Assembly: GCA_009930305.1 (NCBI GenBank)
Contig: RZYM01000003.1
Span: forward strand, 109,772 to 173,771
DNA: 64,000 nucleotides
Reading direction: 5' to 3'
Source: Bacteroidia bacterium
Lineage (GTDB): Bacteria; Bacteroidota; Bacteroidia; Bacteroidales; Paludibacteraceae
Of the stretch, positions 39,821-63,907 are shown piece after piece; position 1 is the stretch's first letter; the number at the start of each line of letters is the position of its first letter. Below the pieces are notes generated by a model. That model searched no databases and had not been told where the DNA came from. It saw nothing but the letters and a program-made list of their open reading frames with translations. The translations under genes were made by a program, and so were the position numbers.

Positions 39821-40177
39821 ATTAGCTACGAAGCAGGCGAATGGGAAGATTACTCACAATTTTAATTATTGAAAAAGGTGTTCGTGAGCTCCCGTGCGGT
39901 CGGTTGCAGCTCTTTTGTAATCCTTTGGTTTCAGCGTTGACTTGTGGGGCCTTGGCAATGTGTGCAATGTGGATGGGCTGTTGAAGTTACGAATCCTAAT
40001 GCGCCCTTAAAGGCGCAAAAAAACATACTATCCCAGCAATTTTTTATACCGCGTGTTGGACACTGGTTTTAGAGCGTGCTGGAGTTCGTGGCCACTTCAT
40101 TATTCACCGTTACTGCCCTTGCCAGCGAGCTCAGAACTTTCAATTTGCTCTGAAACACGCATGATGTATACACTGTG
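39821..40177. other. Gene-free junction between the kdp operon and the cassette array
   Basis: No gene is seen. The stretch holds a small hairpin (40000-40005 with 40012-40017), an isolated cassette-type right core (TATACCGCGTGTTGGACA, 40046-40063) whose left partner I could not define, and then a clearer cassette repeat from 40071. This looks like the old, degenerate end of the array. Confidence 0.55.
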
Positions 40178-40183
40178 TTAGCG
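40071..40183. repeat. attC-like element 1
   Basis: The right part (CCGTTACTGCCCTTGCCAGC ... TTTGCTCTGAAAC ... GTATACACTGTGTTAGCGGC) is closely similar to the element at 61710-61845. The right core GTTAGCG is at 40177-40183 and supplies the TAA stop of the neighbouring gene. The left end is truncated or eroded. Confidence 0.7.
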
Positions 40184-41023
40184 GCTAATAATTTTTTCTA
40201 AATATTTTATTGTTATTCCGTTTGTTTCTTCTGCTTTAAATTCTCTGTAGCCAAGTTTATTATATAGAAAAAGATTCTTTTCACTTTTAAATCCGGTAAA
40301 CAACTCGAATCTTGTTGTTTTATTGAATTCTCTCTCTACAGTTTCTAAGAGAAGTCTACCAAATCCTTTGTTTTGATAATCTTTATCAACAATCAGTTTG
40401 CCAATGTAACAGGAATCGTTTTGTACAAATGCTCTAACCGAGCCTATAATTTTACCTTTAAATTCTAGTTTAAAAATGATCTGGTTGAGAAAGTCATTTT
40501 TTATACTTTCAAAGTTCTGTGTTAACGGTGCAATTGCATAATCATTATAAATTTCGGCCTCAGATAAATAACAACACTTTTGCAAATAAAGAATCTGTGC
40601 TAAATCACTTTCATTCGCCTTTGTTATAGTATAATCTAAAACTGCTGTCAACTCAATTTTATTATTATCAGGATCCCTAATCACACTTTCATAGTATCCA
40701 TCTCCAGTAGTTCTTGGATAACTATCAATGGTAACCCCTGAAATTTCAAATCTTTTTGTCAAGTTATTCACTTGTTCCTTTGTCCCAACGCTAATTGCAA
40801 AATGAGCAAGACCAATCCTTTCATTATTATCTCTATCACCTATATCCGGCCGTTGCATTATTTCAATTCTTGTATCGCAACCAGTAAAGGATAAGAAATA
40901 CGAAGAAAAACTATTTTTTATATTATCGTATCGGACGGACACTTTACAATCAAAGAACCTTAAATAAAAGTCCTTCAATTTATCCAAATTCCTAGTCCAT
41001 ATAGCTATGTGATCTATTTTCAT
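40178..41023 (-). CDS. VOC-GNAT two-domain protein
   Basis: The 281-residue protein fuses two known folds. Residues 1-130 form a glyoxalase/bleomycin-resistance (VOC) domain (MKIDHIAIWTRNLDKLKDFY, GLAHFAISVGT, RDPDNNKIEL with candidate metal ligands His and Glu). Residues about 133-281 form a GNAT acetyltransferase (IGKLIVDKDYQNKGFGRLLL is the acetyl-CoA loop, LYNKLGYREF near the end). A drug or toxin detoxification role is a reasonable guess. The stop codon lies inside the attC-like core at 40177-40183. Confidence 0.8.
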   Translation of the reverse strand: MKIDHIAIWTRNLDKLKDFYLRFFDCKVSVRYDNIKNSFSSYFLSFTGCDTRIEIMQRPDIGDRDNNERIGLAHFAISVGTKEQVNNLTKRFEISGVTIDSYPRTTGDGYYESVIRDPDNNKIELTAVLDYTITKANESDLAQILYLQKCCYLSEAEIYNDYAIAPLTQNFESIKNDFLNQIIFKLEFKGKIIGSVRAFVQNDSCYIGKLIVDKDYQNKGFGRLLLETVEREFNKTTRFELFTGFKSEKNLFLYNKLGYREFKAEETNGITIKYLEKIISR

Positions 41024-41043
41024 GAGATTTTATTGTGTTTTAT

Positions 41044-41084
41044 GACCGCGGCCGAGGTTATGGGCATTGGCGTGTGTTAGCGGT
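41044..41084. repeat. attC-like element 2 (short form)
   Basis: A short form, GGCCGAGGTTATGGGCATTG then GCGTGTGTTAGCGGT, related to the short elements at 49092 and 53633. The right core GTTAGCGGT (41076-41084) is the exact reverse complement of the core ACCGCTAAC at the far side of the same cassette (42237-42245). Confidence 0.75.
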
Positions 41085-41091
41085 TCGGTAT

Positions 41092-42213
41092 TTATTTTAC
41101 AGTTCTCTCGTGTTCTTTTCTATTTTTGTGAAATGTACTAATCCGTCCATTTGCGTCAATGTGAAATGTGTAATAGTCTCCTTGAAAATATATGCTTTGG
41201 GTTCCATATTTACTATATCTAGAATCAGGATTTTCTTCTCTGAACTTTTGATAAGCATCCTCTATTTCTCTAATTATATTTTCCATTACCAAAAAAACAT
41301 CACCTTCATTCCATTGAAAATTGTCTTTGTGTTCGAAATGTTGATTGACTTTAAATTCTTCAACATGTCTCATGTATATATGTAGGAAACTGTCAATATC
41401 CATATAAATTGGGTATTTTCCCATTACATTTAATCTTTTCTCATTAAATATTTTAACTTTCATAAATAATTCAGTTGCTTGTTCTAAATTTTCCTGAAAA
41501 AGCTTTTCGAAACTACTTCCTGCTTGTTTAAGATAAGAGTCAAGAATCATTAATCTTTTGTTAGCCTCATGCTCTTTGAGAATTTTTAATTTTTGTTCTT
41601 CCTCTTTTCCAATTTCTTCTCGCATTCTTTTCATATCTAAGAACTCCATTTCAATGGGAGCTCTCATTAAACCTGCCTCATCAAATATTTCTTGTCTTTC
41701 TTGCTTAGTCAAATTCTGTGGCTCAAAATAGAGTTTCCCTGCTAAATAAAAGTCTCTTTCATGAGGAGACAATTTAATTCCTTGTTCTACAAGTCTGTTA
41801 TGAAAACCGTACATCCACCCTAAATCACCACCTTTTAGTTGTGGCTCAAATTCAATTATATGCTTGTTTAAAACTTTCTTTTCAGTGTTATGAAATGTGT
41901 TTTTGTGAATGTTATGTAAGAAAAACATATCAACAATATCTTGAGATTCTATGCCATTTTCTAAAAGATCTTTATTCTCGGCTTCACTTAGTTTAGACAA
42001 TAAGTCTTTTGCTCTAACTCGACCATGAGTTGAGAAATTTTCATTTTGGATTCTTTTATCCAATTCTTCACGTTCAGACTGAGTGTAAACAAATTGAACA
42101 GTCAACATGTCTCCATATTTACTGAATGCTTCACTTCCTTTTTTAAAAGTCAGATTAGCCACACAATCGTCTTTTCCGACCAGTTTGTAAATCTTTTCAA
42201 TTGAATAATCCAT
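41092..42213 (-). CDS. Cassette protein of unknown function, 373 residues
   Basis: I do not recognise this 373-residue soluble protein. It is rich in charged helices, with a likely coiled coil at about residues 195-245 (FLDMKRMREEIGKEEEQKLK). The C-terminal part has GKYPIYMDIDSFLHIYMRHVEEF and a terminal beta segment, IYFQGDYYTFHIDANGRIST. It has no signal peptide or membrane segment. It is alone between two attC-like elements in the same orientation as all other array genes. Confidence 0.7.
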   Translation of the reverse strand: MDYSIEKIYKLVGKDDCVANLTFKKGSEAFSKYGDMLTVQFVYTQSEREELDKRIQNENFSTHGRVRAKDLLSKLSEAENKDLLENGIESQDIVDMFFLHNIHKNTFHNTEKKVLNKHIIEFEPQLKGGDLGWMYGFHNRLVEQGIKLSPHERDFYLAGKLYFEPQNLTKQERQEIFDEAGLMRAPIEMEFLDMKRMREEIGKEEEQKLKILKEHEANKRLMILDSYLKQAGSSFEKLFQENLEQATELFMKVKIFNEKRLNVMGKYPIYMDIDSFLHIYMRHVEEFKVNQHFEHKDNFQWNEGDVFLVMENIIREIEDAYQKFREENPDSRYSKYGTQSIYFQGDYYTFHIDANGRISTFHKNRKEHERTVK

Positions 42214-42236
42214 ATTTTTATCTTTTTTGTATGCTG

Positions 42237-42372
42237 ACCGCTAACGTTTGGCGGTATGAAATATTGAGGATTGCGGGCTTTTTACCTGTCAATTTACAGT
42301 TAAATTTGGTGCGGACTACTACGCCCCGAAAACCACTGAAACCCTTATTAACTATACCGCATGTTAGCAGTA
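42237..42372. repeat. attC-like element 3 (136 bp)
   Basis: The outer arms pair as GCTAAC ... GCGGTAT with ATACCGC ... GTTAGC. The interior has GAGGATTGCGGGCTT, shared with other elements. Left core ACCGCTAAC at 42237-42245; right core GTTAGCAGTA at 42363-42372. Confidence 0.85.
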
Positions 42373-42429: not shown

Positions 42430-42978
42430 TTATTTTGTTTCTTGTGCTATTCTCAAAAGTTCATTCATTGTTTTCCAATTTCTTGTTGTTGCCCCAACTT
42501 TTAATTTTAGCTCTAAAAAGCTGTTGGTCAGTTTTGTTTTTCCGTAACCGTTTGGACAATACAAATAAACTGCCTTGTCATAAAAAAATATTTCTTCTCC
42601 GCTAAGTTTCTTTTCTTCTATTGTGCTATATTCAGTTTTTTGAGGTTTTGAAGATAAAAAAGTAATGTGTAAAAAAGTTTTATCCTTATCGGTTTGTTTT
42701 AAAAATGGATTGCTGTCAATTATTTGTTTCAATTTATCTATGGTCAAAACGATTACGGGAAGGTCAAAACCAAAGTCTTTTTCAATTTGTCGTGTTATCG
42801 TTTTTGCAAGTTCATCTGGTTTTGCTTTGTCTCCTATAAAAATAACATTTCCACTTTGTACATAAGTTGCAACGCTTCGAAAACCTAAATTTTCATATGA
42901 CTTCCGTAAAGCATCCATTTTGATAAGTTTTTGTCCGCTTACGTTAATTCCTCTTAGTATTGAAATGTAAGTTGTCAT
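42430..42978 (-). CDS. DUF1697 family protein
   Basis: The 182-residue protein has the DUF1697 opening TYISILRGINVSGQKLIKMD, then NLGFRSVATYVQSGNVIF and a C-terminal LTNSFLELKLKVGATTRNWK. The family is widespread and small, with no established function. It is the only gene between elements 3 and 4; the cores at the two ends of this cassette match over ten bases. Confidence 0.88.
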   Translation of the reverse strand: MTTYISILRGINVSGQKLIKMDALRKSYENLGFRSVATYVQSGNVIFIGDKAKPDELAKTITRQIEKDFGFDLPVIVLTIDKLKQIIDSNPFLKQTDKDKTFLHITFLSSKPQKTEYSTIEEKKLSGEEIFFYDKAVYLYCPNGYGKTKLTNSFLELKLKVGATTRNWKTMNELLRIAQETK

Positions 42979-43016: not shown

Positions 43017-43146
43017 TACTGCTAACGGCTCATGGTATGGTCTTGTGAGGATTATGGATTTCCTATCAGTTTACACTGACCTTTTTTACGAGCCACAAAC
43101 GCTCGCATACCGCTGAGACCCGCATGCACTATATCATGTGTTACCT
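43017..43146. repeat. attC-like element 4 (130 bp)
   Basis: Left core TACTGCTAAC (43017-43026) is the reverse complement of the right core of element 3. Right core GTTACCT (43140-43146) differs from it but matches the left core of element 5. Inner arms GGTATGG and GCATACCGC are visible. Confidence 0.83.
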
Positions 43147-45240
43147 AATGGCATTTTTATCTAAGTTATTTTTCAATTCAAATTCTTTATAAAAGTCAAG
43201 TGTTCCGAAGGTTACAAACTTATTAGATTTTAATTTTTCATAAAAAGAATCATTATCAATTGATAAATTAATTATTTCTAAAAGTTGTCCCAAATTTAAA
43301 AAGCTACAATTAAAAAATGGAAAATGGTCGAATCCCTTGTCCAAGGTTTTAAGTTTTGTGTATTGTTCTCCCCAAGTTTGTTGTTTCTCTTTTAAAATAT
43401 CAAACTTTTTAATAATTTTTTCTTCCTCTGAATAAGTTCCGTAAGAATGAGTTAACAATGCATTAAAAAATTGATTAATTATAGTCCTGTCATGAAACCC
43501 TCCAAAATCAAGTTGTGTTAATGATATTCTTTCAATTGTTCTATTTTTCCAATTAACTGTTTTAGAATCATTTGTTTTAAGGTCTGTAAGTGTTATTTCT
43601 CCTTTTTCCCTTAAGACTAATTCTGTTCTTCCTGCTTGCAATTGGGAAAATAATATGCTATCTGACAAATCAATTAATATATCAATATCAATCCCTGATT
43701 TTGCTTTTCTTGTTAAAACTTTCTTTTTAAATTCAACTAAAATGATAGCTTCATTTGTTTCAATAAGAAGGTCGCATTCACCGTCAATCGAATCAACAGT
43801 ATAATTTCCATGACAGAATGTGATATTATGAATTTGCAACCTATTATAAATTAAGCCCTCAAGTGCATAACCAATATTTGAGTCAAAATTTTTCACTTTG
43901 GCCAATCTAAATTTTGTTGCTAAAGATTCAAATAATGAAGGGGAACACCATGATTTATCCATCAACAGGTATTTTGTTTCTCCTAGCTTTATTAATGGAT
44001 TAAACTGAAAGTCAACTTCTGTAAAATCAGATGGCAATAAATAATTTGAATTTGGATTAGAAGAATGAGACATTAAGTCAAGAACCCTTTTAATCTCCTG
44101 TTTATCAATATCTCTAAGAACTTTGCTGATTGCTGACAAATAAATAATTTTTACACCATTTATATTTTTAACAGAATTTAAAATTTCTCTTATTATGGAA
44201 TAGCAATTTTCTTTGTTTACGCCTATTATTTGAAGAAATATTTCATCTTTTATCTCGCTAAATAATTCTTGTAATATTTCTAATGAAAGTTGTGGTCGAA
44301 TCTGAATTAGTGAGTAAATTGAATCCCAAAGAGCAATCTCAGTACAAAATTTAATTATTGTTTCTCCTGTTTGGAAAAAATTTGTCCATTGATTATAATG
44401 CTGCACATTATAACATCCAGTTACAATAGCTATAGATAAGTTCTGTATTTCGGTTAGTTGACGGTGAATATTTTTATTAGATGAATTCTCATATGGATAT
44501 TTCACACAAAGATTTAATAAATAACCAAAAGGTATTTGAGGCTTCTGGTGCATACTTAAACCATTACCTTGTCGTGTAAGATGATATCTTTCGAAGTAAC
44601 TCGAATAATTATTTTGCTTCAGGAGAATAAATATTCCATTTGCCAATGTGATACCACCAATTTCTTTTATTAAATCATCTAATCTATTTATTGCAAGTTC
44701 AGTATCTTTAATCTCAATGTCATCATTAACAATCGAAACCTTGCATCCTACTGAAATTAATTTCTTTAATTGAGTTACTCGGTCATATTCTTGTGGATAA
44801 TGTTCTCTCAATCTATCTGGCGACAAATCATATGAATTCTTTGAGACTAATTTATAATCTTTCAAATTTGAAATTATTCGATTCCATGATTCGGTATCAT
44901 CTAGTAGAGGTACTCTTTTAATCCTTGCATCCTTAATTGCAAAAAGAGTTTGTAGTATATTTAAATATTTAAGTACAGGCTCATCAAATAATAAGAACTT
45001 ATAAATCAAATTTTCTGCAATTTCTTCAAGTTTATTAACAGAAATGCTATCATTCTCTGTTGCTCCATTTCTATCAAAGTCTGCTTCGAAACGTTTTATT
45101 ATCTCATCTTGAAAAAGTCTCGGTGAATAATGATATGTAATGTCAATACCAAGTCTTTCTGCTAGCAATCTATAATCATCCTTAACATCATCAAGTGTAG
45201 AATTGTTGCTGTCGATTAATTTGATAAGTCTATCTGTCAT
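43141..45240 (-). CDS. Large cassette protein with a PD-(D/E)XK-like nuclease region
   Basis: The 699-residue protein has no signal peptide. At about residues 460-507 it has YALEGLIYNRL, then GECDLLIETNEAIILVEFKK, the E ... D-x(n)-E-x-K pattern of PD-(D/E)XK nucleases. The N-terminal two thirds is helical and unrecognised. A nuclease flanked by a large helical region in a defence-rich array could be an anti-phage effector, but that is inference. The stop codon lies within the core GTTACCT. Confidence 0.65.
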   Translation of the reverse strand: MTDRLIKLIDSNNSTLDDVKDDYRLLAERLGIDITYHYSPRLFQDEIIKRFEADFDRNGATENDSISVNKLEEIAENLIYKFLLFDEPVLKYLNILQTLFAIKDARIKRVPLLDDTESWNRIISNLKDYKLVSKNSYDLSPDRLREHYPQEYDRVTQLKKLISVGCKVSIVNDDIEIKDTELAINRLDDLIKEIGGITLANGIFILLKQNNYSSYFERYHLTRQGNGLSMHQKPQIPFGYLLNLCVKYPYENSSNKNIHRQLTEIQNLSIAIVTGCYNVQHYNQWTNFFQTGETIIKFCTEIALWDSIYSLIQIRPQLSLEILQELFSEIKDEIFLQIIGVNKENCYSIIREILNSVKNINGVKIIYLSAISKVLRDIDKQEIKRVLDLMSHSSNPNSNYLLPSDFTEVDFQFNPLIKLGETKYLLMDKSWCSPSLFESLATKFRLAKVKNFDSNIGYALEGLIYNRLQIHNITFCHGNYTVDSIDGECDLLIETNEAIILVEFKKKVLTRKAKSGIDIDILIDLSDSILFSQLQAGRTELVLREKGEITLTDLKTNDSKTVNWKNRTIERISLTQLDFGGFHDRTIINQFFNALLTHSYGTYSEEEKIIKKFDILKEKQQTWGEQYTKLKTLDKGFDHFPFFNCSFLNLGQLLEIINLSIDNDSFYEKLKSNKFVTFGTLDFYKEFELKNNLDKNAIR

Positions 45241-45271
45241 TTCGGTTATGTAGTATGTTTCTTATGCTTGC

Positions 45272-45411
45272 AGGTAACGGTTCGGCTATGGGCAGTGGCG
45301 GATTGCGTGCGACTTTCTATCAAGGTACACATAAAGTTGAAGCGTGACAGAATACTTTAATAACCACTTAGCCCCCAATTGGGTTTGAGCCTTTGTTGTA
45401 CACTGTTATTT
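45272..45411. repeat. attC-like element 5 (140 bp)
   Basis: Left core AGGTAAC (45272-45278) matches the right core of element 4 as its reverse complement. The interior GGATTGCGTGCGACTTTCT is almost identical to one in element 14 (60727). Right core GTTATTT (45405-45411) overlaps the stop codon of the next gene. Confidence 0.8.
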
Positions 45412-46167
45412 TTTTGTCTTTATATACACAAGTTTTATTGAAGCCCTTTCTGTTAATCTCTCATCAATATTAAATTTATCCTTTAAAGACTTTATCAATG
45501 GAGTAAGTTTTTCGAAGCCATAATTTCTTGGATCAAAATCTGGTTTTTTCTTAATCAGTAGATTACCTACATCCCCCAAAAAAGCCCATCCATCTTCATC
45601 CGCAATATCATCAACTGTCATTGATATTAGAGTTACAATTTCAGCATCAATTTTCTGAATGGTCTCTTGTTCACTAATCTGAGAATTTGCTTGTTTATTA
45701 ACCTCATGTGAATCAGACATAACAGAACTCTTTAAGATTTCAAGGTATATAAACTTATCACATGCAACAATAAATGGATTAGGTGTCTTTTTCTCACCGA
45801 ACCCAAAAACCTTCATTCCCGATTCTCTAAGTCTAGTTGCTAGTTTTGTAAAATCACTATCACTCGATACAATGCAAAATCCATCAACTTTATCGGTATA
45901 TAAAATATCCATAGCATCTATAATCATAGCAGAATCTGTTGAATTCTTACCGGTTGTATATCCATATTGTTGAATTGGTGTTATAGCATTTTCTAATAAT
46001 ACATTTTTCCAACCAGACAAATTTGGTTTTGTCCAATCACCATATATTCTCTTAAAAGTCGGTATACCATATTTAGCAATTTCTTCCATCACTCCTTTGA
46101 CATTAGAAGATGGTACATTGTCTGCATCAATTAATACAGCAAGTTTTAAATCATTTTTTATTTCCAT
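45406..46167 (-). CDS. NYN (LabA/DUF88) domain protein with C-terminal OST-HTH-like domain
   Basis: The 253-residue protein has a PIN-like NYN domain at about residues 8-145: LAVLIDADNVPSS, NSTDSAMIIDAMDILY and GFCIVSSDSDFTKLATRLRE carry the expected acidic metal-binding residues. Residues about 175-250 look like an OST-HTH/LOTUS RNA-binding domain (DEDGWAFLGDVGNLLIKKKPDFDPRNYGF). The family is predicted to cleave or bind RNA. The stop codon TAA lies in the core at 45405-45411. Confidence 0.85.
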   Translation of the reverse strand: MEIKNDLKLAVLIDADNVPSSNVKGVMEEIAKYGIPTFKRIYGDWTKPNLSGWKNVLLENAITPIQQYGYTTGKNSTDSAMIIDAMDILYTDKVDGFCIVSSDSDFTKLATRLRESGMKVFGFGEKKTPNPFIVACDKFIYLEILKSSVMSDSHEVNKQANSQISEQETIQKIDAEIVTLISMTVDDIADEDGWAFLGDVGNLLIKKKPDFDPRNYGFEKLTPLIKSLKDKFNIDERLTERASIKLVYIKTKK

Positions 46168-46204: not shown

Positions 46205-46340
46205 TTGCCAAAAGGTGATGGTATAGTTTGTTGACGATTTCGAAGCGATTTCTTATCAAGTTACAATGAACTTTAATAGAAGTAAAAACCTTGTAACATG
46301 CACTGCAACGGCAATTTTATATACCGTGTGTTGGGCGCTG
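46205..46340. repeat. attC-like element 6 (about 136 bp)
   Basis: Right core GTTGGGC at 46330-46336 is preceded by TATACCGTGT; the facing inner arm is GATGGTATAG (46218-46227). The left core is eroded (TTTTGCCAAAAGG). Confidence 0.65.
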
Positions 46341-46409: not shown

Positions 46410-47357
46410 TTACTTCTTATAATCCTCAATTTTTACACCTGCTTTATTTATATAAAATTTTTCTTCTCCGAGTTGCACATGGGCTTTGTTATCGTTAAAA
46501 GAATTTGCATCATCATAAACAAAAGGAATCACAATTTTTCCGGTTTTATCAATATAGCCGTATTTTCCATTTAATTCCACCACAGCTAATCCGTTTTTAA
46601 ACCCTATCAAACCCATATTATCATTTTCATTATATAGAAACGGAACAACAACCTTTCCTGTTTTATCAATAAAACCCCATTTCCCATTTAATTGGACGGC
46701 GGCTAACCCTTCTTGAAAAACATTGGCAAATTTATATTCCGGTTGAATTATCATTTTTCCGGATTTATCAATGTATCCCCATTTCCCGTATAATTTTATG
46801 GCAGCTAATCCTTCTATATAGTCCTTGGCATCTTCATATATAATGGAAACAACAATTTTCCCGGTTTTATCTATAAACCCGTATTTGTTATCTAAAGTCA
46901 CCATTGCCAATCCGTCTCGAAAGTTACCACATCCTGTTCGAAACCAACTAAATCCATCGTATTTCATCGGGATCACAACGTTTCCGGTTTTATCAACATA
47001 GCCCCATTTCCCATTTAATTTCACCAATGCCAATCCTTCATGAAAATCCTTGACACGTTCATATATCATGGGAACAACAAGCTTTCCGGTTTTATCAATA
47101 AACCCACATTGTTCGTATGATTCTACGGAGGCTAATCCTTCTTTATAATCAGAAACATAATCATATCCCTTTAGAGGAGCAAGAATTTTATCTGTTATTG
47201 CATCTGCTATATAATAACCGGGAAGTGTTTCGCCCTGATTGGTTGACAAATGTACAATCTTAACAGAATCAGTCGATTGTATGGTAGTTTGTGCCTGAAT
47301 GGTTTGTGGCAGTATGCCTGTAAGGCAAAGTGCGATAGTTAGAATTTTTGTTTTCAT
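46410..47357 (-). CDS. WG-repeat protein (exported)
   Basis: The 315-residue protein has a signal peptide (cleavage after IQAQ, about residue 23) followed by about seven WG repeats of 30-40 residues built on the unit KWGYVDKTGNVVIP-x-YD-x-F-x-EGLA. The repeats are thought to form a beta structure for binding, but their role is unknown. No attC-like element separates it from the FISUMP gene 47 bp upstream, so both belong to one cassette. The following right core is GTTGGGC. Confidence 0.88.
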   Translation of the reverse strand: MKTKILTIALCLTGILPQTIQAQTTIQSTDSVKIVHLSTNQGETLPGYYIADAITDKILAPLKGYDYVSDYKEGLASVESYEQCGFIDKTGKLVVPMIYERVKDFHEGLALVKLNGKWGYVDKTGNVVIPMKYDGFSWFRTGCGNFRDGLAMVTLDNKYGFIDKTGKIVVSIIYEDAKDYIEGLAAIKLYGKWGYIDKSGKMIIQPEYKFANVFQEGLAAVQLNGKWGFIDKTGKVVVPFLYNENDNMGLIGFKNGLAVVELNGKYGYIDKTGKIVIPFVYDDANSFNDNKAHVQLGEEKFYINKAGVKIEDYKK

Positions 47358-47404
47358 TTCTTTTATAGGTTAATATAATTATTTATAAAATTGATTGTAA
47401 GATA

Positions 47405-48103
47405 TTATTCATTTTTTACGCATCGTACAGAATACCCGGCTCGTTTTTCCTCGCTGCCTTTAAAAATATCTCCATAGGAAGTTATTTTTCTATAGATAGC
47501 AAAAGATAAGTTGTCGGTTATAGCTGCCCACCATCCTGTATATCCTCCCATCCCGTCAAACCCGCCATTTATACCGCGAATACCGCTTGGCAGGGCTTTA
47601 AAACCACTCATGGCAAACGAGGTGCTGTCGCCCAATATACCGTTTAACCATAAAGCAGTATCGGCTTTTAGCATATTGCCCTGATTTGTCCCTCTCCAAT
47701 TGTTTTTTTGTACATCAATTGTATCTATGCCTAATGCCATTTCAAGGTTTGCCCAATTTTTTTCGGTAGCAACATGCCACCCAGCCGGACACAAATTGCC
47801 GGTATTCACCGCGTACCAATTATATAAGCAACCGTACTTTTCCAAATTGCTTGAGTCATTTTCAAACCAACATAAAGCCGGAGTTATAAGAAACTTCCAT
47901 TCCACATCATTTGCAACTATGGGAATGGATATTCCATCATTGTATTTCGTTGTTTTCAGGTTTTCAGCGAGCCACTCTTTGTTGCCTATATTTATCGTTG
48001 TGTAAATATTCCCGTCTGCATCGGTTACCATGTTGTTTTTATGAGCTTGTAGTGTTATACACAAGCAACTTAAAAGGATGATGATCTGTATTTTTAATTT
48101 CAT
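47405..48103 (-). CDS. FISUMP-domain exported protein
   Basis: The 232-residue protein has a signal peptide (residues 1-20) and a FISUMP (Fibrobacter succinogenes major paralogue) domain: TDADGNIYTTINIGNKEWLA, YGCLYNWYAVNTGNLCPAGW, GFKALPSGIRGINGGFDGMG and the final AGYSVRCVKNE. Such proteins are usually surface-located in Bacteroidota; function is not established. It shares a cassette with the WG-repeat gene. Confidence 0.88.
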   Translation of the reverse strand: MKLKIQIIILLSCLCITLQAHKNNMVTDADGNIYTTINIGNKEWLAENLKTTKYNDGISIPIVANDVEWKFLITPALCWFENDSSNLEKYGCLYNWYAVNTGNLCPAGWHVATEKNWANLEMALGIDTIDVQKNNWRGTNQGNMLKADTALWLNGILGDSTSFAMSGFKALPSGIRGINGGFDGMGGYTGWWAAITDNLSFAIYRKITSYGDIFKGSEEKRAGYSVRCVKNE

Positions 48104-49071: not shown

Positions 49072-49091
49072 TGCTGTTCGTTTTTTTACAT

Positions 49092-49545: not shown

Positions 49546-49547
49546 GA

Positions 49548-50546: not shown

Positions 50547-50564
50547 ATTTGTTGGTTTATTAGG

Positions 50565-55292: not shown

Positions 55293-55314
55293 AATTGTCA
55301 GATTTTTTACCATT

Positions 55315-56067: not shown

Positions 56068-57408
56068 GCTCTGGATTTTAAATTTATCAAGTTGTTTTTT
56101 CAATGTTGTTTCTAGTTTAGATTCTAATATTGTTATGTCTAAATCACTCTCTTTCCAAAATGGAATTTCCATTGCCGTTACTTTGATTTTGTCGTCTATA
56201 TTAAAACCTGATTCGATTTCAAAAATGTCAGGTTCGTTTATGTCATCTGTTATGTTTGGATACAATAGGAAAATATCTGTGCAACCCCTGCGAAAAGCAT
56301 AGCTTGTCATTTGATAGAGGTCAGTTTGTGCAATTCCCTTTTTAATGTCGTTTTTGAAGTCGGGTGAACGAAGTTTGTATTTCGTGTCAATAATAACTCT
56401 TCGCTTTTCTACTGTTTTGGAAGTCAAAAATATGTCGTGTTGCATATTGAATGCTTCCGGATTACTTGATAAATATTCGTTTGACTTTTGATATTCTACT
56501 TTCCAATCATTAGAAAATTTGTTGGCTAAAAAACCTGCAACAAAATCTTCAAAAATGTATTCCATTGGAAATAACAAGCACCATTGCGATAGATCGTATG
56601 TATTGCTTGAATAAAGTTGTTGATTCAAAACTAATTTACAACTGTCAAGAACTTTATTGTATTCCTCAAAAAAAGAATTGAGCGTAATATTTTCAACTTC
56701 GTAACTATTACAAGGAATATCTTCAACTTCATCTAAGATAAAAATAACTTCTTGAAGTTTTTGCAAGTTTTCCGCAAATTTAGTTTGATTCATTAAAAGT
56801 CTCGAGCAATATTTGATTACACGATTTACTTTATTATCAAATAAAAACGGTTCGTAGTCGCATTCTATATTTTGAAAGTTTCCACTTACCAAACTGTTTG
56901 CAATGTATCGTTTGAAATTTATTGAACCTCTTGGCGTTTGCATCGCTTCTTCAATAGGTTGATACATTGTTAAAGGTTGATTTGAAACGGTTTCTAAAAA
57001 TTGATTTGCTATTAGATTAATTATTAATTCGGGAAATTCGTCAACAGAAAATCTGTCAAGTTGTGCCTGGCTAAAAGGAAATTTCCATTTGTGACAATAG
57101 TTGAACCAAAAAAATATATGGCGAAGCATATCGTTTTTGTCTTTCTCTGGGCAATTACGAAATACTTTCGGATAAATTTCAACTAAGTCGTTTGCTGTTT
57201 GAATAAAGCCAACGTAGTTGTTTGCTCTAATTTCGTTGTTTGAAAAGCGTAAAAACGGTTGATAGTTTTTGTCCGTTTCGTTTTCTTCTGATTCTTCCGT
57301 TAAGTCTGTAAAATTACGTTGTCGCCAAATTGATTTTAGCGATTGAGACAAAGCTTCTGAATTTTCAACCTTTACCCATTTGTCATATTCAAACAATGTT
57401 TGTTTCAT
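56062..57408 (-). CDS. mcrC: McrC-like 5-methylcytosine restriction system component
   Basis: The 448-residue protein has the McrC layout: an N-terminal beta domain (FIQTANDLVEIYPKVFR), a helical middle and a C-terminal PD-(D/E)XK nuclease with FNMQHDIFLTSKTVEKRRVI then IDTKYK (about residues 325-350). With the GTP-driven McrB it cleaves modified DNA. It starts at the base after the mcrB stop. Its stop codon is the TAA of the attC-like core at 56061-56067. Confidence 0.92.
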   Translation of the reverse strand: MKQTLFEYDKWVKVENSEALSQSLKSIWRQRNFTDLTEESEENETDKNYQPFLRFSNNEIRANNYVGFIQTANDLVEIYPKVFRNCPEKDKNDMLRHIFFWFNYCHKWKFPFSQAQLDRFSVDEFPELIINLIANQFLETVSNQPLTMYQPIEEAMQTPRGSINFKRYIANSLVSGNFQNIECDYEPFLFDNKVNRVIKYCSRLLMNQTKFAENLQKLQEVIFILDEVEDIPCNSYEVENITLNSFFEEYNKVLDSCKLVLNQQLYSSNTYDLSQWCLLFPMEYIFEDFVAGFLANKFSNDWKVEYQKSNEYLSSNPEAFNMQHDIFLTSKTVEKRRVIIDTKYKLRSPDFKNDIKKGIAQTDLYQMTSYAFRRGCTDIFLLYPNITDDINEPDIFEIESGFNIDDKIKVTAMEIPFWKESDLDITILESKLETTLKKQLDKFKIQSY

Positions 57409-59595
57409 TTATCGTTGTGAAATTATCCAACCAAATTTAGTTGAGTCGTATTCTACTTTCCAAATCGTTTCATTGAAAATTTCTGAAACAATTTTTGTTT
57501 TTCCTGAAAAATACTCCATTAAAAGCGGAATAACTTTGTTTCTTAAAGTTGTTTCAATGGCTTCATCCTTCATAAAATAAGCATGCCCTATCAAGTAATC
57601 GGCAGATTCTTTCTTTTTGTAAATCGCTTCATTGATTTTTTTAAGTAAAGTTTTCGATTCTGGTTTCAAACTTTCATAATCTGGATAATAACCAATAAAT
57701 TCAAATCTTCTACGCAAAGCAATATCAATAAGAGCTATAGACTTGTCAGCCGTATTCATAGTTCCGATGATAAAAAGATTTGGCGGAACGCCAAATTCTT
57801 TTTCTCCATTTGGTAATGTAATTTTTAATTCATTTGGCATGCCAAGTCTTTTATCGTCTTCAAGCAACGTAATAAGTTCGCCAAACACTTTTGAAATGTT
57901 TGCACGGTTAATTTCGTCAATTATTAAAACAAAGTTTTTTAAGGGTTCTTTTTTTACTGTCGTAGATTGAAACTTGTAACCTTTTTTGTTTAGAAATTCT
58001 CTAAACTTTTCAACTAACTCAAAACTGTAAGTTGCGTGTTGCTTTTCTAACGCTGGAACATTTTCTAATAATTTTACGTCTTTGCGACTTTCAACATTTG
58101 CAAGGTAAATGTTGATTAATGCGTCATAGTGCATCCCTATTCGTTGATTATTCCACAACTCGCCATTTTCCTTTTCGCCAGTGTAAATGAAAACTTCGTT
58201 CTCAACTGCATAAATTGAAACTTTATTTTTTAGAGCATATTTGCCATTCTTTTCAATTTCTGCTTGAACATATTCTTGAAACTCTTCAAACTTTTCTTTA
58301 ACCCAATTTTCTTTTGAAATTGTTTGTTCGTCTTTTAATGAGTTTTCGTAGTTTTCTTTTGCACGTTTCGCTACTTCATAGAAAATGCCGTAATATTTTT
58401 TGAAACTTAATTCGCTTGTTGTTTCGCTAACATTCGGGCGAATACCAACCATAAAATCTTCATAAGAATAATTTTGATGAAACGTCACGAATTCAATTTG
58501 TCCTTTCTTTCGCAAATCATCAAAAACTATTTTATTGTCAATGTGACTTTCTGAATAACTTTCAATTGCTGCAATTTCAATAGCCTTGTCAATGCTGTTA
58601 TATGTTTTTCCCGTTCCGGGAGGTCCAAACAAAATAGAATTTAACGGCATATTTGTAATTGTTGGTGTTGTCATAATTTGAGTTTTGGGTAATTGAGCAA
58701 TAAATTCTGAATAACTTTTGATGGCTGCGGAATAAAATCTTGAAGTACCGTAAGACGGTGCTTGCATGTAATAATATTTCCCATCTGTTTTTTCCTGTTC
58801 GCTTAGTAAGTCTTCGTAAAGAGCGTTTAAAATTGTTAGGTTGTCTTCTTCAAAAATTTCTTTGTGTGTTACTTTTGTTAGAATATCAATTGCTCTCACA
58901 TAGGAATTTGCTTTCTGGCTACCTTCTTTGTTAGTGCTGTTTAACCAAGATGTGTATTGTTGTTTGTAATTTGTTTTAAAAAAATGGTTGAAAATATCAT
59001 TAACATCCTCGTCTGCAACTTTTTGGATTGTATTTCTATATCCACCCATTCCTTCTAAATCAAAAGCTTGGAAATTATTATTCCATTTAATTTTTAAAAT
59101 TCTTCCGTTGTTTTCGTTTTTTATTACTTCTCCAATTGCCTTTATTCTTAATATGCTTTTTCGGTCTTTTGTTGCATACGATGATTTAATAGCTACTTTG
59201 TCACCAATGTTTACTGCATTAACTACATTTAAAAATTTGTCTTCATAACCGTTTTCCCAAATACCATTTTGGATAAATCTATCAGTTTGGTCGTTCCCAT
59301 CCCATGAAGCGCCAAGTACGTAATACGAAATATTTACAGTTTTATTTTTTGTTTTTACTTCGAAGCCTAATTCTATCAAATATTTGTTAGTTGGTTCACC
59401 ACCGCTTAGTTCCCAAATATGTTCTCCGTTCAACAATTCGTGAGCATATCTCATAATTTCTTTTGGTGGGTATGCTTTACCATTTATTATTACGTCAAAC
59501 TTTGTTGATGGCTCAAGTTGAATATTTTCTTTTTCAATTTTTTCAACTGCTTTTTTAATTAAGTCTTGAGTTATTTTTTCTGGTTCAAATGCCAT
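57409..59595 (-). CDS. mcrB: McrB-like GTP-dependent restriction translocase with N-terminal EVE-like domain
   Basis: The 728-residue protein has an N-terminal region with NISYYVLGASWDGNDQTDRF and GDKVAIKSSYATKD (about residues 88-145) that looks like an EVE/PUA-type modified-base-recognition domain. The AAA+ motor follows: Walker A FGPPGTGKTYNS (about 323), Walker B VLIIDEINRANISKVFGEL (about 570) and MNTADKSIALIDIALRRRF, the McrB GTP-specificity motif. It recognises modified DNA and drives the McrC nuclease. This is the longest cargo in the array. Confidence 0.92.
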   Translation of the reverse strand: MAFEPEKITQDLIKKAVEKIEKENIQLEPSTKFDVIINGKAYPPKEIMRYAHELLNGEHIWELSGGEPTNKYLIELGFEVKTKNKTVNISYYVLGASWDGNDQTDRFIQNGIWENGYEDKFLNVVNAVNIGDKVAIKSSYATKDRKSILRIKAIGEVIKNENNGRILKIKWNNNFQAFDLEGMGGYRNTIQKVADEDVNDIFNHFFKTNYKQQYTSWLNSTNKEGSQKANSYVRAIDILTKVTHKEIFEEDNLTILNALYEDLLSEQEKTDGKYYYMQAPSYGTSRFYSAAIKSYSEFIAQLPKTQIMTTPTITNMPLNSILFGPPGTGKTYNSIDKAIEIAAIESYSESHIDNKIVFDDLRKKGQIEFVTFHQNYSYEDFMVGIRPNVSETTSELSFKKYYGIFYEVAKRAKENYENSLKDEQTISKENWVKEKFEEFQEYVQAEIEKNGKYALKNKVSIYAVENEVFIYTGEKENGELWNNQRIGMHYDALINIYLANVESRKDVKLLENVPALEKQHATYSFELVEKFREFLNKKGYKFQSTTVKKEPLKNFVLIIDEINRANISKVFGELITLLEDDKRLGMPNELKITLPNGEKEFGVPPNLFIIGTMNTADKSIALIDIALRRRFEFIGYYPDYESLKPESKTLLKKINEAIYKKKESADYLIGHAYFMKDEAIETTLRNKVIPLLMEYFSGKTKIVSEIFNETIWKVEYDSTKFGWIISQR

Positions 59596-59650
59596 TTTAT
59601 TCTTTTATTAATTTTTGAATATCAATTGTTGTATGTTGTTTTTAACCTGA

Positions 59651-59668
59651 TCGCTAATGTTTTAGCAA
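59651..59668. repeat. Collapsed attC-like element 13
   Basis: Only the two cores remain, GCTAA (59653-59657) and TTAGC (59662-59666), with four bases between them. It marks the boundary between mcrB and the peptidase gene and supplies that gene's stop codon. Confidence 0.5.
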
Positions 59669-60624
59669 TTGTTTTTTATTTCTTTTATTTTGTCAAGTGT
59701 TATTGTAAATAGTTCTTTGTAACTTTCAACTGTTTGAGGATATTCAATTTCAACATTATATTTTATTGCCCAAAATCTAAAAGTCAAACTTGCAATGCCC
59801 CACAAGTTGTCTATGTCTTCTAATTTTATTTTCTCAATCGCTTTTTTAAGTCTTTCATCAGTGTCTGGGTGAGTGTCACCACCGCTTAACGATTCGTCAA
59901 GCAATATGAGCGAACTGATACCTGCAATAATTCCACATTTAAATGTTATACCACGTTCAGAAGAAAAGTTCTGAGAAATTTTATCAATTGCATATTCGTC
60001 AGCTTTGTATTCCTCTGTTTTAAATTCTTCTGCATTTTCTGGATAGTAGGTTAAATGTTCATAATATTGGTGACCAAATTCGTGAAGTAAAATAAAGGTC
60101 ATTGCTGCCGTATAAATTCCATTTGTTTTTTCAATATAATATTTATCGTATTCATTATATTTTTCAGGATTTGGTAACTGAGAAAACTGCCAATCTTTAT
60201 ATGTTTGCAACAGGTCAAAGCCGTTATTTAAAACAGCTATTGCTTGTTTTACAAATGGATTTTCTAAGTCAAATTTCCCTGTATATTTTTTTTCAATAAT
60301 GGGTTTCTGTATGCTTTCGTCAAATACTACAACAAGTGAATAGCAAATGCACCATAAATATTGGTTGAAATTTTCATAAAGTTCAATTTGTTTTGAAGAG
60401 TTAATGTGAGCAATTTCCGTTATTTTTGTTCTGTTGGTGTGATATTGAATACCTGCTTTAAATCCATTATAGTATATTTCTGTTTTGACGTCTTCTTTAA
60501 AGTCAGGTGTTATATTTATAAACCAATCTAAAAAGTTAAACTTTAACACTCTTACTGGAAGATCGCCTTTATGTGTCATTGGATTATAAAAGTCGTATTG
60601 TATCATTTTTTCTTCTTTTATCAT
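59662..60624 (-). CDS. HExxH metallopeptidase (Lit/U49- or ImmA-like)
   Basis: The 320-residue protein has AMTFILLHEFGHQYYEHL with the zinc motif HEFGH at about residues 181-185 and EYKADEYAIDKISQ about 25 residues later, which would give the third ligand. The first 130 residues are unrecognised. The layout recalls phage-exclusion peptidases of the Lit (U49) type. The stop codon is in the collapsed element at 59651-59668. A start at 60606 is also possible. Confidence 0.72.
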   Translation of the reverse strand: MIKEEKMIQYDFYNPMTHKGDLPVRVLKFNFLDWFINITPDFKEDVKTEIYYNGFKAGIQYHTNRTKITEIAHINSSKQIELYENFNQYLWCICYSLVVVFDESIQKPIIEKKYTGKFDLENPFVKQAIAVLNNGFDLLQTYKDWQFSQLPNPEKYNEYDKYYIEKTNGIYTAAMTFILLHEFGHQYYEHLTYYPENAEEFKTEEYKADEYAIDKISQNFSSERGITFKCGIIAGISSLILLDESLSGGDTHPDTDERLKKAIEKIKLEDIDNLWGIASLTFRFWAIKYNVEIEYPQTVESYKELFTITLDKIKEIKNNC

Positions 60625-60726: not shown

Positions 60727-60861
60727 GCGCTAACGGTAAGTTGTATGAGTAATGGCAAATTGCGTGCGACTTTCTGTCGGCACAACACGAAAGTCAGTAT
60801 GGAAATCAGACATTCCAAAATGAGCATTCACCCGCAATTGCCTATAGGTATTGTTATGGGC
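60727..60861. repeat. attC-like element 14 (135 bp)
   Basis: Left core GCGCTAAC (60727-60734), interior AAATTGCGTGCGACTTTCTG as in element 5, right core GTTATGGGC (60853-60861), the exact reverse complement of the left core of element 15 (GCCCATAAC). Confidence 0.83.
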
Positions 60862-60882: not shown

Positions 60883-61665
60883 TTAATCAAATAAATCCGG
60901 TTCACTCTCATCCGGATAATTATTTACAATTTTGTATTTTACAATTTTGTCTCCAACTTTAAGCACTTCAACATCTACAATATATCCTCTTTGCTGCCAA
61001 TCAACACCATCTTTTGAGGTTGTCATTTCTTTCTTAGCAAGGGAATTATCATCCTCAAAAATTACAGATATAGGATAATTTGGTAAAATATTTTCAATAA
61101 TTCCCTTATTCCCTTTATTTACCTTGTCTTTGTCAAAACAAGTTTGATACCAATAAAATAAAACTTTATTTCTTAAATGATTTGTTTCTTGTTCTTCAAT
61201 AAAATTTTTGCTTTTTAATAATTCAGGAACTTTATCTGTTATTAATTTACCTTCTTGCTGAGTAAAACTTACAGTTTGATCGCCATAATTCACATTCACA
61301 TTGCAATTTGGTCCACAATTTATAATCGGTTGAATCAAATAAGATGTATTTTCTATACTTTTCTCTGTAATTGTCCTATCTTCTTTTTTATCTCTAAGTA
61401 TGTATTGTTTTACCTTATTTATATGCGTTAAGAAATCAAATAAAATATTAGTATCAGATAAAAAAGGCAATGAAGTAGAAACAACACCGACAATAAAATC
61501 AACAATATAGCTTCCTTCTCGTACTTTATCAATTTTTAATTCTCTATCTCCACCATTTAGTCTTTTAAACTCATCATTTAAAGCCATCAAAGATTTGGAA
61601 AAATCTTCAACAGAAATAGCATCATTAGTGTTAATAACAAAAGTTAGACTGTCTTCTTTTTTCAT
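60883..61665 (-). CDS. Cassette protein of unknown function, 260 residues
   Basis: I do not recognise this protein. It has no signal peptide; a hydrophobic patch at about residues 51-75 (YIVDFIVGVVSTSLPFLSDT) may be one membrane segment or a buried helix. The C-terminal half is beta-rich with PNYPISVIFEDDNSLAKKEM and ends in an acidic tail. It is alone between elements 14 and 15, whose facing cores match exactly over nine bases, so it is one of the best-defined cassettes. Confidence 0.7.
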   Translation of the reverse strand: MKKEDSLTFVINTNDAISVEDFSKSLMALNDEFKRLNGGDRELKIDKVREGSYIVDFIVGVVSTSLPFLSDTNILFDFLTHINKVKQYILRDKKEDRTITEKSIENTSYLIQPIINCGPNCNVNVNYGDQTVSFTQQEGKLITDKVPELLKSKNFIEEQETNHLRNKVLFYWYQTCFDKDKVNKGNKGIIENILPNYPISVIFEDDNSLAKKEMTTSKDGVDWQQRGYIVDVEVLKVGDKIVKYKIVNNYPDESEPDLFD

Positions 61666-61709: not shown

Positions 61710-61845
61710 GCCCATAACGTTTGACGATATGAAATGCTGGGGAGTGCGTGTTTGCGAACCTATTACCCGTTACTGGCCTTGCCAGCGGGCGATGAACTTG
61801 CAAATTGCTCTGAAACCCGCATAATGTATATAATGTGTTCGCAGC
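61710..61845. repeat. attC-like element 15 (136 bp)
   Basis: Left core GCCCATAAC (61710-61718), right core GTTCGCA (61837-61843). The interior, including CCGTTACTGGCCTTGCCAGC and TTGCTCTGAAAC, is closely similar to that of element 1, 21 kb away. Confidence 0.82.
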
Positions 61846-61854
61846 TGGGCTTTT

Positions 61855-62073
61855 TTAATCTTTCGGTTTATTCAATTCAACGTTCAGAATATCGAAAGTT
61901 TTTATTATCTCATTTTTCATAAGCAGAAGATAGGAAGAATTTACTACCCGTCTGTCAGATAAAAATGTCCCATTTTTTAATGTAACATTTACAATTTGAT
62001 AACCCATTCCTTGTTCCGGCAGGTCAGCAAGAATGTCAATGTATTTTTGCGGCAATTTTACTTTTTCATTCAT
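61855..62073 (-). CDS. Small protein with the PE-x-GMGYQI motif
   Basis: The 72-residue protein contains LADLPEQGMGYQIVNVTLKN and DRRVVNSSYLLLM. It closely resembles the first 60 residues of the 228-residue protein encoded immediately upstream (LLPETGMGYQIIDAKRQGG, ERFVVYNSELIVEL). I do not recognise the family. It starts two bases after that gene's stop, so the two are cotranslated in one cassette. Confidence 0.7.
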   Translation of the reverse strand: MNEKVKLPQKYIDILADLPEQGMGYQIVNVTLKNGTFLSDRRVVNSSYLLLMKNEIIKTFDILNVELNKPKD

Positions 62074-62075
62074 TC

Positions 62076-62762
62076 TTAGTATGGTTTTCTCTCCAAATAA
62101 GTTCTATCAGAAGTCCCATTGTCAAATAATGCTTCTATTCCACCTCCATTATGATCATTTGCAAGCAGAACAACTCCTGGTCTATATTGGTCATTGGATT
62201 TAGGTCTGATGTAAAATGCCCATTTTATTGTTTCATCATTTGGTAAAGCATATCTATCAACAGGGTCGTCTAAATACCTTTTACAAGTCAGATAATCCGC
62301 TTCTGTTGTTGTATATGAACCACTTCTCAGTCTCATTTTAACAAAATCTATTCTTTTATCATAGGAATATGCAGAAAGGCGCACAAACATTTCTGAACCG
62401 CTTGCATATCTTGGAGGATTATCAATAGCCCCAGTGGTTCCAGAATGTCTACCTTTAGTATTCATACTACTTTCAGAAAATGTCCGAACATTTCTCACTG
62501 CTGATTGCTTAACTAAAATAGGACTTTCTAAGGATATAAAATCTGATTGGCTAAACATTTTTGTGTAACTCTCAAGAAGAATTTGGCGCTTAATAGTGTT
62601 GAAATCATTGTCAAGTTCGACAATTAATTCACTATTATAAACTACAAATCTTTCTGTTGAAAATCCGCCTTGTCTTTTTGCATCAATGATTTGATAACCC
62701 ATTCCTGTTTCTGGTAACAAAAGAAGAGATTGAGTAAATTGAGATTGCGCTTTGTAAATCAT
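62076..62762 (-). CDS. Protein of unknown function with PE-x-GMGYQI domain, 228 residues
   Basis: The N-terminal 60 residues carry the motif LPETGMGYQIIDA also found in the neighbouring 72-residue protein. The rest is unrecognised but has YASGSEMFVRLSAYSYDKRI and a C-terminal segment with NDQYRPGVVLLANDHNGGGI. No signal peptide or membrane segment. The pair may be a full-length protein and a partner sharing its N-terminal domain. Confidence 0.7.
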   Translation of the reverse strand: MIYKAQSQFTQSLLLLPETGMGYQIIDAKRQGGFSTERFVVYNSELIVELDNDFNTIKRQILLESYTKMFSQSDFISLESPILVKQSAVRNVRTFSESSMNTKGRHSGTTGAIDNPPRYASGSEMFVRLSAYSYDKRIDFVKMRLRSGSYTTTEADYLTCKRYLDDPVDRYALPNDETIKWAFYIRPKSNDQYRPGVVLLANDHNGGGIEALFDNGTSDRTYLERKPY

Positions 62763-62779
62763 TTTCTAAATTTTATTAG

Positions 62780-62834
62780 TTAGTACTTTATGTGTCGTAG
62801 TTTTCTTAGCTTTTCAGCATACAGCATGTTAGGC
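62780..62834. repeat. Degenerate attC-like element 16
   Basis: Right core GTTAGGC (62828-62834), matching the consensus exactly, preceded by CAGCATACAGCAT. The left half is eroded; I could not fix its border. Confidence 0.6.
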
Positions 62835-62841
62835 AAGGTAC

Positions 62842-63816
62842 TTATTTAATCATCATTCTTACAATCTCATTTAGTTCTTCCATATTTTTCCGTTGTACCT
62901 CACTTATTGGTTTCTTATAGTCTTCAAGTTTTTCAATGAAATTAGAAAGAGCACGTTTTGTTCCTAGAATATATTTAAAGGACGATTCTAATTGAGATGA
63001 ATTATTTGCAATCATTTTTGCCGCTGACATTCCTGCGCTTTCAATAGTTCTTGAAATTCTATGACTACCATCTGATTGCGAATGTGGCATAATTGTTAAA
63101 ATATGACTCGAATCCAACGGGAGCATTATCATATTTTCTGGGTCAAATGGTGCTATATGTCCAGGATTTATATTTGATAAAACAACAGGATTGTCACTTG
63201 TAAATAGTTCATTTCCTGATGTTATCTTGCTTACTAAAATTCCGTCAAATTTTCTAATATTTATTAGTTTAAAAGCAACTTTCAACTGTGTCAGAACTTG
63301 TACTTCTTTTTTCATCTTCCTAAATTCTTTCTTAATTTCATCAAGAGTTTTGCCTTTAATTGAATATCTGAGGTCCTCGTACATAAAGTAATCCTTTCCA
63401 GTCTGCTCACATAAAGAATACATTCTATCTAATACAGTATCAAAAAGGTCATTATGTAAGTGAATCCATTTAGAAGTGCGATACATCATTGTAATAATAG
63501 TCATTACAATTTTATAGTGCATTTCTTTATTAATTTCTCTAATTGACTCGTCTGTCAAAGTTTGGTAAACTTCATTATATACATTTTCAACATTATCTGA
63601 ATAAAATGTCTCAAGAGCTTGTCTTTGTTCTTCAGTCTGTCCTGTAAGTGTATAAATGTCTGTTTCCAAGCATACATTAGTAATATTAGGAAATATTATC
63701 TTTTCTAAATTATTTTTATCTATGGCATTAATATTATAGTTCTTCTTCCTTTTTATAGCAAACTTTTGCAAATAAGTTCTCGGAACATAATGCTGTCTTG
63801 TAGCTTCGTGGCTCAT
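62842..63816 (-). CDS. DUF4238 family protein
   Basis: The 324-residue protein begins MSHEATRQHYVPRTYLQKFA, the DUF4238 signature (HYVPxxYLxxF), followed by NVCLETDIYTL and SGNELFTSDNPVVLSNINPG. The family is common next to defence genes and mobile elements but has no proven function. It would be the first cassette of the visible array. Its 3' core GTTAGGC and the core TTCCTAAC at 63833-63840 agree except for one base. Confidence 0.85.
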   Translation of the reverse strand: MSHEATRQHYVPRTYLQKFAIKRKKNYNINAIDKNNLEKIIFPNITNVCLETDIYTLTGQTEEQRQALETFYSDNVENVYNEVYQTLTDESIREINKEMHYKIVMTIITMMYRTSKWIHLHNDLFDTVLDRMYSLCEQTGKDYFMYEDLRYSIKGKTLDEIKKEFRKMKKEVQVLTQLKVAFKLINIRKFDGILVSKITSGNELFTSDNPVVLSNINPGHIAPFDPENMIMLPLDSSHILTIMPHSQSDGSHRISRTIESAGMSAAKMIANNSSQLESSFKYILGTKRALSNFIEKLEDYKKPISEVQRKNMEELNEIVRMMIK

Positions 63817-63832
63817 CTCTTTCTTTGTATTT

Positions 63833-63885
63833 TTCCTAACTTCTGTGTATAGTTATTCATTTTTTATATAAGCTATAGCATGTCG
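63833..63885. repeat. attC-like element 17 at the right edge
   Basis: Core CCTAAC (63835-63840), then TGTGTATAG pairing in part with CTATAGCA (63873-63880). The right core appears changed (TGTCG instead of GTTAG), so this may be the point where the array meets other DNA. Confidence 0.5.
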
Positions 63886-63907
63886 TATATATTTGCATTA
63901 TTGACTA

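Follow-up and report, generated by a model that had tools for sequence, protein, structure and literature searches.

An integron-like cassette array in a Bacteroidales genome and a candidate recombinase lacking the IntI-specific domain

The integron integrase IntI is identified by IntegronFinder through its specific domain (PMC9668308), and integron surveys have selected integrases by the same domain (PMC2426708, PMC9668308), so that a recombinase devoid of I2 would be overlooked by them. I2 is reported to be necessary for cassette capture, and its deletion to abolish IntI1 (PMC7790495). A subgroup of "integron-like" simple tyrosine recombinases has been described in which the insertion is not fully conserved (PMC8138268), which means that such I2-less sequences have already been noticed; in the available portion, the same paper regards the insertion as essential for integron function and does not tie these proteins to cassette arrays. 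Bacteroidota are listed among the phyla with integrons (PMC8618304), and one complete integron was newly named in Bacteroidetes, that of Salinibacter ruber, besides those of Chlorobi and Ignavibacteriae (PMC9024848). Here, we analyzed a 64,000-nucleotide stretch of DNA (the window), which corresponds to positions 109772-173771 of contig C116 in the 2.69-Mb draft genome G000 (197 contigs) and shares its right end with this contig. A Bacteroidales small SRP RNA at window position 30456 agrees with the order assignment. The right-hand part of the window bears an array of about 16 units, most of which end in an attC-like site with paired arms. Judging from the sequence, we consider it quite probable that an IntI-like tyrosine recombinase lacking the IntI-specific domain builds and reshuffles these units in the form of circular cassettes. 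No account of such a system was found in the open-access literature, subscription papers and preprints lying outside the search.

All the genes between 40178 and 63816 (23/23) lie on the minus strand, just as claimed in the preliminary description of this DNA. Its other observation, a palindrome at nearly every unit boundary, was likewise borne out: about 16 boundaries were found, 11 of them bearing sites recognized by a covariance model, R1 (10 strong), while three short sites and two relics were noted by eye. R1 was derived from 14 seeds, five of them sites on other contigs of G000 and nine in the window, the latter matching the model by construction. Within the window, R1 gave 11 matches, all on the minus strand between 40089 and 61845, ten of them with E ≤ 5.1e-11 and the eleventh (40089) with E 0.014, and zero sites in bases 1-40000. 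In the whole genome, 31 matches were obtained at E ≤ 0.1; besides the 11 of the window array on C116, seven contigs share the other 20 (C76, 7; C142, 3; C49, 3; C148, 2; C132, 2; C31, 2; C14, 1), and one of the three on C142, at C142:3197, sits outside the array of that contig.

In the site, an outer stem terminates in AAC/GTT and is followed by an asymmetric spacer, a stem with a GTAT/ATAC box and further pairs; the middle of the site holds a stretch largely alike in most seeds, TTGACAGGAAA. The outer cores had been proposed to read RYYYAAC and GTTRRRY; AAC and GTT hold, but the full motif is not the rule, as the six outer bases vary. These bases differ between the units and tend to match the other end of their own unit. 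The seeds were aligned without regard to structure, and a single structure was then read by eye from the same sequences. In this alignment, 75.4% of the cells are paired versus 61.0% after shuffling and at most 36.9% with a slid partner, and the covariation score of 0.383 exceeds both the shuffled value (0.156 ± 0.022, none of 500 as high) and the slid-partner value (at most 0.108), though the slid-partner control favors the structure because it was read by eye from those very sequences. Changes on both sides were seen in 16 of the 24 pairs, which is less striking taken alone, since 36 of the 500 shuffles reach 16. Among 50 matches in other genomes, 90.1% of the cells are paired, but that alignment was fitted to the model.

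These data bear on an alternative in which the cassettes and the recombinase are the same but the sites act as double strands, as in Xer/dif, with the arms serving as two binding sites and the stem being kept for some other reason. For ten sites of the window, the predicted folding energies do not fall below those of shuffled sequences; the arms are bulged and AT-rich. The unremarkable energies weigh against a site that acts when folded and fit the double-stranded alternative. On the other hand, helix 2 runs to 17 pairs over 20 columns per side, which exceeds the expectation for two binding sites, and 13 of these 17 pairs are changed on both sides in the seed alignment. The recombinase, considered below, lends this alternative some weight, and we judge it possible but rather unlikely.

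The proposal that the units have moved as circles leads to the ends of the units themselves. Once an integron cassette is circular, its first bases form part of the site that closes the same cassette. We compared the six bases before AAC at the end of a unit with the six bases after GTT at its start. In a set of 22 own-unit pairs (five from the window, the pairs spanning a boundary missed by R1 being excluded), the mean agreement was 4.55 of six bases and 12 pairs were perfect; permuted pairs averaged 2.52, and none of 10,000 permutations scored as high. Within a single site, by comparison, the arms agree on average in 2.5 of six bases. After inspection, four short-site pairs found by eye were added and one pair was replaced by that of the second attI-like boundary of C76 (see below); in the resulting set of 26, 15 pairs are perfect, including all four units adjacent to attI-like boundaries (4/4). 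The window pairs alone gave 4/9, in line with greater age and partial decay of this array. The same comparison clearly succeeded in Flavobacterium difficile (11/11 perfect) and genome G336 (11/15), where none of 5,000 permutations scored as high in either case. Arundinibacter (2/3), two loci of metagenome-assembled genomes (2/4 and 1/2) and G261 (3/3) gave perfect pairs as well, none of them significant singly. In G258, only 3/14 pairs were perfect, which is not significant.

Matching ends of the same unit make it unlikely that the palindromes are simply dispersed repeats of the REP or MITE type and that the genes just form a genomic island. Such an explanation could draw on the fact that site sequences are up to 94% identical across families, the cassette genes being mostly different. 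Yet dispersed repeats would not make the two ends of one unit match while differing from those of its neighbors, and the sites keep the direction of the genes and occur in arrays. We thus give this explanation hardly any credence and retain that of mobile cassettes.

Two recurrent modules were noted in the arrays. G258 (C1:2273878-2306485) has seven starts, GTT|AATGGGTC, of a unit that spans about 250 bases and holds no long reading frame; in six of the seven copies, the likeness extends to a short site missed by R1, which accounts, after the fact, for six of the poor pairs in this genome. A non-coding module of about 240 bases opens several cassettes (C76:35713-35944, C49:9709-9963 and C76:11569-11798, as well as cassettes in G336 and G258); it is up to 92% identical between families and is perhaps a travelling promoter.

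No recombinase gene is present within contig C116 as assembled. Elsewhere in the genome, one tyrosine recombinase gene is split at contig ends into three N-terminal pieces (the right ends of C142, C148 and C76) and three C-terminal pieces (the left ends of C76 and C148 and the right end of C111), and C76, C142 and C148 are also R1-positive. Arrays with the same sites adjoin the N-terminal pieces on these three contigs and are divergent from the recombinase gene; cassettes heading away from the recombinase start are a feature shared with classical integrons. A stretch of about 280 bases, running from GTT into the first part of the gene, is 94-97.5% identical in the three copies, and the likeness stops at GTT or at most 14 bases from it, the sequences beyond being unrelated. 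The GTT boundary beside the recombinase thus looks like attI, a single putative insertion point. A fourth attI-like boundary lies at C76:19889 (L019); the recombinase remnant behind it has the same end as the intact gene, and the locus is presumably a fossil platform between two sub-arrays. Possibly, the four platforms or remnants of the genome belong to one chain.

The preliminary description had advised looking past base 64000 for a tyrosine recombinase with the additional domain specific to IntI. A recombinase linked to the same sites was indeed encountered, on other contigs, but the IntI-specific domain is missing from its relatives and from their profile match, and for this reason we do not file the system as a strict integron. 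The NCBIfam integron-integrase model TIGR02249 scored seven relatives at 202-229 bits and two more at 190 and 209, its cut-off being 265, and matched them in separate pieces with the insert skipped. With a profile of ten relatives, the best solved chain was IntI4 of Vibrio (2a3v, 208 bits, in two pieces), of which residues 183-242 (60 residues) stand opposite 17 profile positions. The distance from the GKxxKDR-type motif to HxxRH, counted where both motifs were found (44/89 relatives, 27/32 IntI and 22/23 Xer of the phylum), is 58-59 residues in the relatives, 100 in IntI and 62-66 in Xer. The NCBIfam model NF040815 (XerA-like) put three of seven relatives above its 220-bit cut-off, the other four and two more scoring 199-219.

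The affinity of this family to IntI and Xer is where the double-stranded alternative gains some ground. The recombinase is devoid of I2, the element onto which the extrahelical bases of the folded attC dock in IntI (PMC7790495). Archaeal XerA is nearly as close to the profile as IntI4 (199 versus 208 bits). When the structure of one relative was predicted (mean pLDDT 78.7, pTM 0.38), Foldseek returned 2a3v as its first match, but a structural second look puts two archaeal Xer above 2a3v. In a quick tree of 58 rows, from which archaeal XerA is absent and in which a single Xer row was flagged for its long branch, the I2-less family and IntI stand opposite ten Xer with a support of 99.5; a grouping of the I2-less recombinase with XerC/XerD of the same phylum fails in this tree. 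The IntI clade has a support of 100, and the I2-less rows do not resolve relative to it.

Many relatives differ from IntI and Xer in their N-terminal part. More than 40 residues precede the core domain in 71/89 relatives, 4/32 IntI and 0/23 Xer, and a rough GARWSxTxxxWHxP-type pattern occurs in 35/89 relatives but is absent from the IntI and Xer sequences. In the relative whose structure was predicted, this region consists of three beta-beta-alpha-beta-beta-alpha repeats. Pfam HARP was found in the N-terminal repeats of 3/17 sequences at E ≤ 1, the best at E 0.013, and Foldseek ranked the HARP structure 4o66 first, but at E 0.32; we take the resemblance to the HARP domain of SMARCAL1 as a lead only. 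In genome G000, the N terminus of the recombinase begins directly with the core domain and bears no HARP-like repeats.

For a locus survey, we used the best 80 named relatives of the 591 listed. R1 revealed 60 sites in 22 loci around these genes. The sites on the recombinase strand are all downstream of it (56/56) and those on the opposite strand, in two loci, are all upstream (4/4), so that the sites point away from the recombinase gene in 60/60 cases, in both collinear and divergent layouts. Furthermore, we scored 393 Bacteroidales genomes (sites at E ≤ 1e-4, recombinase at E ≤ 1e-60); in the two sweeps, only the best eight and six candidates per genome were scored and the filters were strict, which makes the absences soft. 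Sites were found in 220 genomes, the recombinase in 147 and both in 127, roughly one third of the sample. The recombinase-positive genomes had sites in 127/147 cases versus 93/246 for the negative ones (Fisher p 3e-22, uncorrected for kinship). In a class sample, the I2-less recombinase was present in 102/198 genomes. The system is no rarity and occurs frequently in both the order and the class sample. Within the family of the window genome, 15/61 genomes have sites, and R1 sites are absent from both other sampled members of the genus. In the single-contig genome G258, the recombinase and the array stand together (2249-2307 kb), the longer array genes being on the minus strand except for some that by eye resemble insertion-sequence genes.

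One gene of contig C14 is common to G258 (71% of bases identical). It lies at C14 (L092) 1705-3806 together with a site and an open reading frame (ORF) that by eye resembles a group II intron reverse transcriptase; in G258, it adjoins the recombinase. A short recombinase relative (56.5% identity) is present on two plasmids, L232 and L233, from Acinetobacter indicus and an uncultured bacterium, where it precedes tet(X3) by 189 bases in the same orientation; no site was found by R1 at these two loci, and the observation is a lead only.

The survey also allowed us to weigh the possibility that a canonical IntI, acting in trans or since lost, serves the array and that the I2-less recombinase is a bystander. 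The contig of the window array has no recombinase, and elsewhere in the phylum canonical IntI does exist (above cut-off in 105/395 sampled genomes, one class member being among the carriers listed). However, no IntI above cut-off was found in genome G000, and the class sample holds canonical IntI in 1/198 genomes versus 102/198 for the I2-less recombinase. The strict strand and side rule of the sites near the I2-less gene, and the attI-like boundary that adjoins this very gene, also speak against it. We regard service by a canonical IntI as very improbable.

The reading that we prefer, capture by the I2-less recombinase, would proceed as follows. A unit would be excised or captured as a circle via its own site, with strands exchanged at the GTT core, while attI would be the entry point for new units. 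The site is predicted to act as a folded single strand and to be recognized without the I2 helix. In many relatives, the HARP-like N-terminal repeats may stand in for I2; the recombinase of this genome has no such repeats and so cannot depend on them. The window array would be an older part of the system; as C116 holds no recombinase, the enzyme acting on the array would be supplied in trans or encoded past the gap. Going further, one may ask whether this is a second widespread class of integrons in Bacteroidia, in which capture occurs without I2 and folded sites are recognized by another device (in many members perhaps the HARP-like repeats); this lineage may be close to the point at which classical IntI originated by gain of the insert. 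For this broader proposal, we see the chances as evenly balanced.

If the system works as its sequence suggests, cassette gene capture would be normal equipment in a large class with few recorded integrons, and it would become testable whether it is I2 that permits the recombination of folded single-stranded sites. Natural I2-less enzymes with sites of their own would be informative here, as the deletion of I2 merely kills IntI1 (PMC7790495).

Turning to the units of the window array, all on the minus strand, their cargo includes an AbiE pair, an McrBC-like pair, a Lit-like protease, NYN-LOTUS, DUF1697, glyoxalase-GNAT, WG-repeat and DUF4238 proteins, and several genes have no Pfam match (domain names are from Pfam unless stated otherwise). 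On the left, the array is flanked by what we take to be the kdp genes. The terminal attC-like site (40089-40185; R1 22.5 bits, E 0.014), whose left arm is intact and remainder deviant, was matched over 40057-40185 with E 0.059 in the whole-genome search. It is followed by a glyoxalase and GNAT acetyltransferase fusion gene (40178-41023) and by a short site noted by eye (41044-41086), whose outer six bases agree 6/6 with the start of its own unit (pair score 6). Next come a gene without a Pfam match (41092-42213), a site (42238-42371; R1 118 bits), a DUF1697 gene (42430-42978), a site (43019-43148; 91.5 bits), a gene for a protein of 699 amino acids with neither a Pfam nor a PADLOC match (43141-45240) and a site (45271-45403; 93.5 bits). 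The gene at 45406-46167 encodes NYN and OST-HTH/LOTUS domains and is followed by a site (46205-46338; 103.6 bits) and a two-gene unit for a WG-repeat protein and a Fib_succ_major protein (46410-48103).

The next boundary (48127-48370) is composite, consisting of an R1 match (48237-48370; 60.6 bits) and a second right end noted by eye (48127-48155). The gene beyond it (48379-49119; no Pfam match) has its first codon inside the upstream short site (49092-49131, by eye), whose outer bases agree 6/6 with the end at 48370 by pair score. A three-gene unit without Pfam matches (49141-51680) and a site (51755-51889; 89.8 bits) precede the two-gene unit of the AbiEii and AbiEi/DUF6088 pair (51888-53496; Pfam, PADLOC), a short site (53633-53677, by eye; pair scores 4/6 and 3/6) and another two-gene unit (53683-55313), whose upstream gene weakly matches the Por secretion tail (24.0 bits, cut-off 27). 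A site (55316-55449; 84.2 bits) is followed by a gene for a SHOCT protein (55454-55726) and a further site (55936-56069; 114.5 bits). Directly upstream of the SHOCT gene, Rfam places a DUF805 RNA (55741-55807, minus strand), and the array of G258 contains the related DUF805b motif (L186:10289-10323, minus strand); these cis-regulatory motifs may travel on cassettes.

The remaining units are a two-gene unit for an McrBC-like restriction component and an AAA ATPase (56062-59595) and, next to it, a degenerate site with the core alone (59649-59668, by eye); a Lit-like / U49 peptidase gene (59662-60624; Pfam, PADLOC Lit) and then a site whose outer bases agree 6/6 with its own unit start (60727-60861; 73.8 bits); a gene without a Pfam match (60883-61665) and a site (61711-61845; 77 bits); a two-gene unit without Pfam matches (61855-62762) and a relic site with the left arm alone (62815-62836, by eye); and a DUF4238 gene (62842-63816). 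The last 99 nucleotides of the contig (63902-64000, no strand assigned) are identical to the 99 bases at the right end of contig C24, so the array may continue past a collapsed repeat; they carry the palindrome TTTCAGGACTAGTCCTGAAA and are perhaps the end of an insertion sequence.

In comparison with the known systems, the array resembles the chromosomal (sedentary) integrons of Vibrio and Xanthomonas in its one-way units, most of them ended by a site, in the attI-like boundary beside a tyrosine recombinase, in the complementary start and end of a unit and in its defense-like and toxin-antitoxin-like cargo. It differs from them in a recombinase without the IntI-specific insert, in a site with a GTAT/ATAC box on the inside and, instead of RYYYAAC, six outer bases that are free, and in the placement of the array, which follows the recombinase on the same strand in 20/22 site-bearing loci of the relatives surveyed, the layout in G000 being divergent. 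As assembled, the window array consists of sites and cassettes without a recombinase, yet the contig is cut, and arrays with a recombinase exist elsewhere in the genome. Spirochaete integrons with a reversed intI (PMC9668308) share the reversed recombinase with the collinear relatives described here; in that paper, IntI is defined by the specific domain. The NCBIfam entry NF040815, "site-specific tyrosine recombinase/integron integrase (XerA-like)", is akin in name only, as the model includes neither sites nor arrays. The preliminary description had left a choice between an integron array and an integrase-less cluster with a lineage-specific attC; the cassette array and its own attC form have stood, upheld by the covariation, the R1 matches and the matching ends, while the strict integron has not, the IntI domain being missing. 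Its plan, sites, attI and unit logic are integron-like, and its recombinase fails the feature that defines IntI; as far as sequence can tell, the system is a variant of the integron rather than a member of that group.

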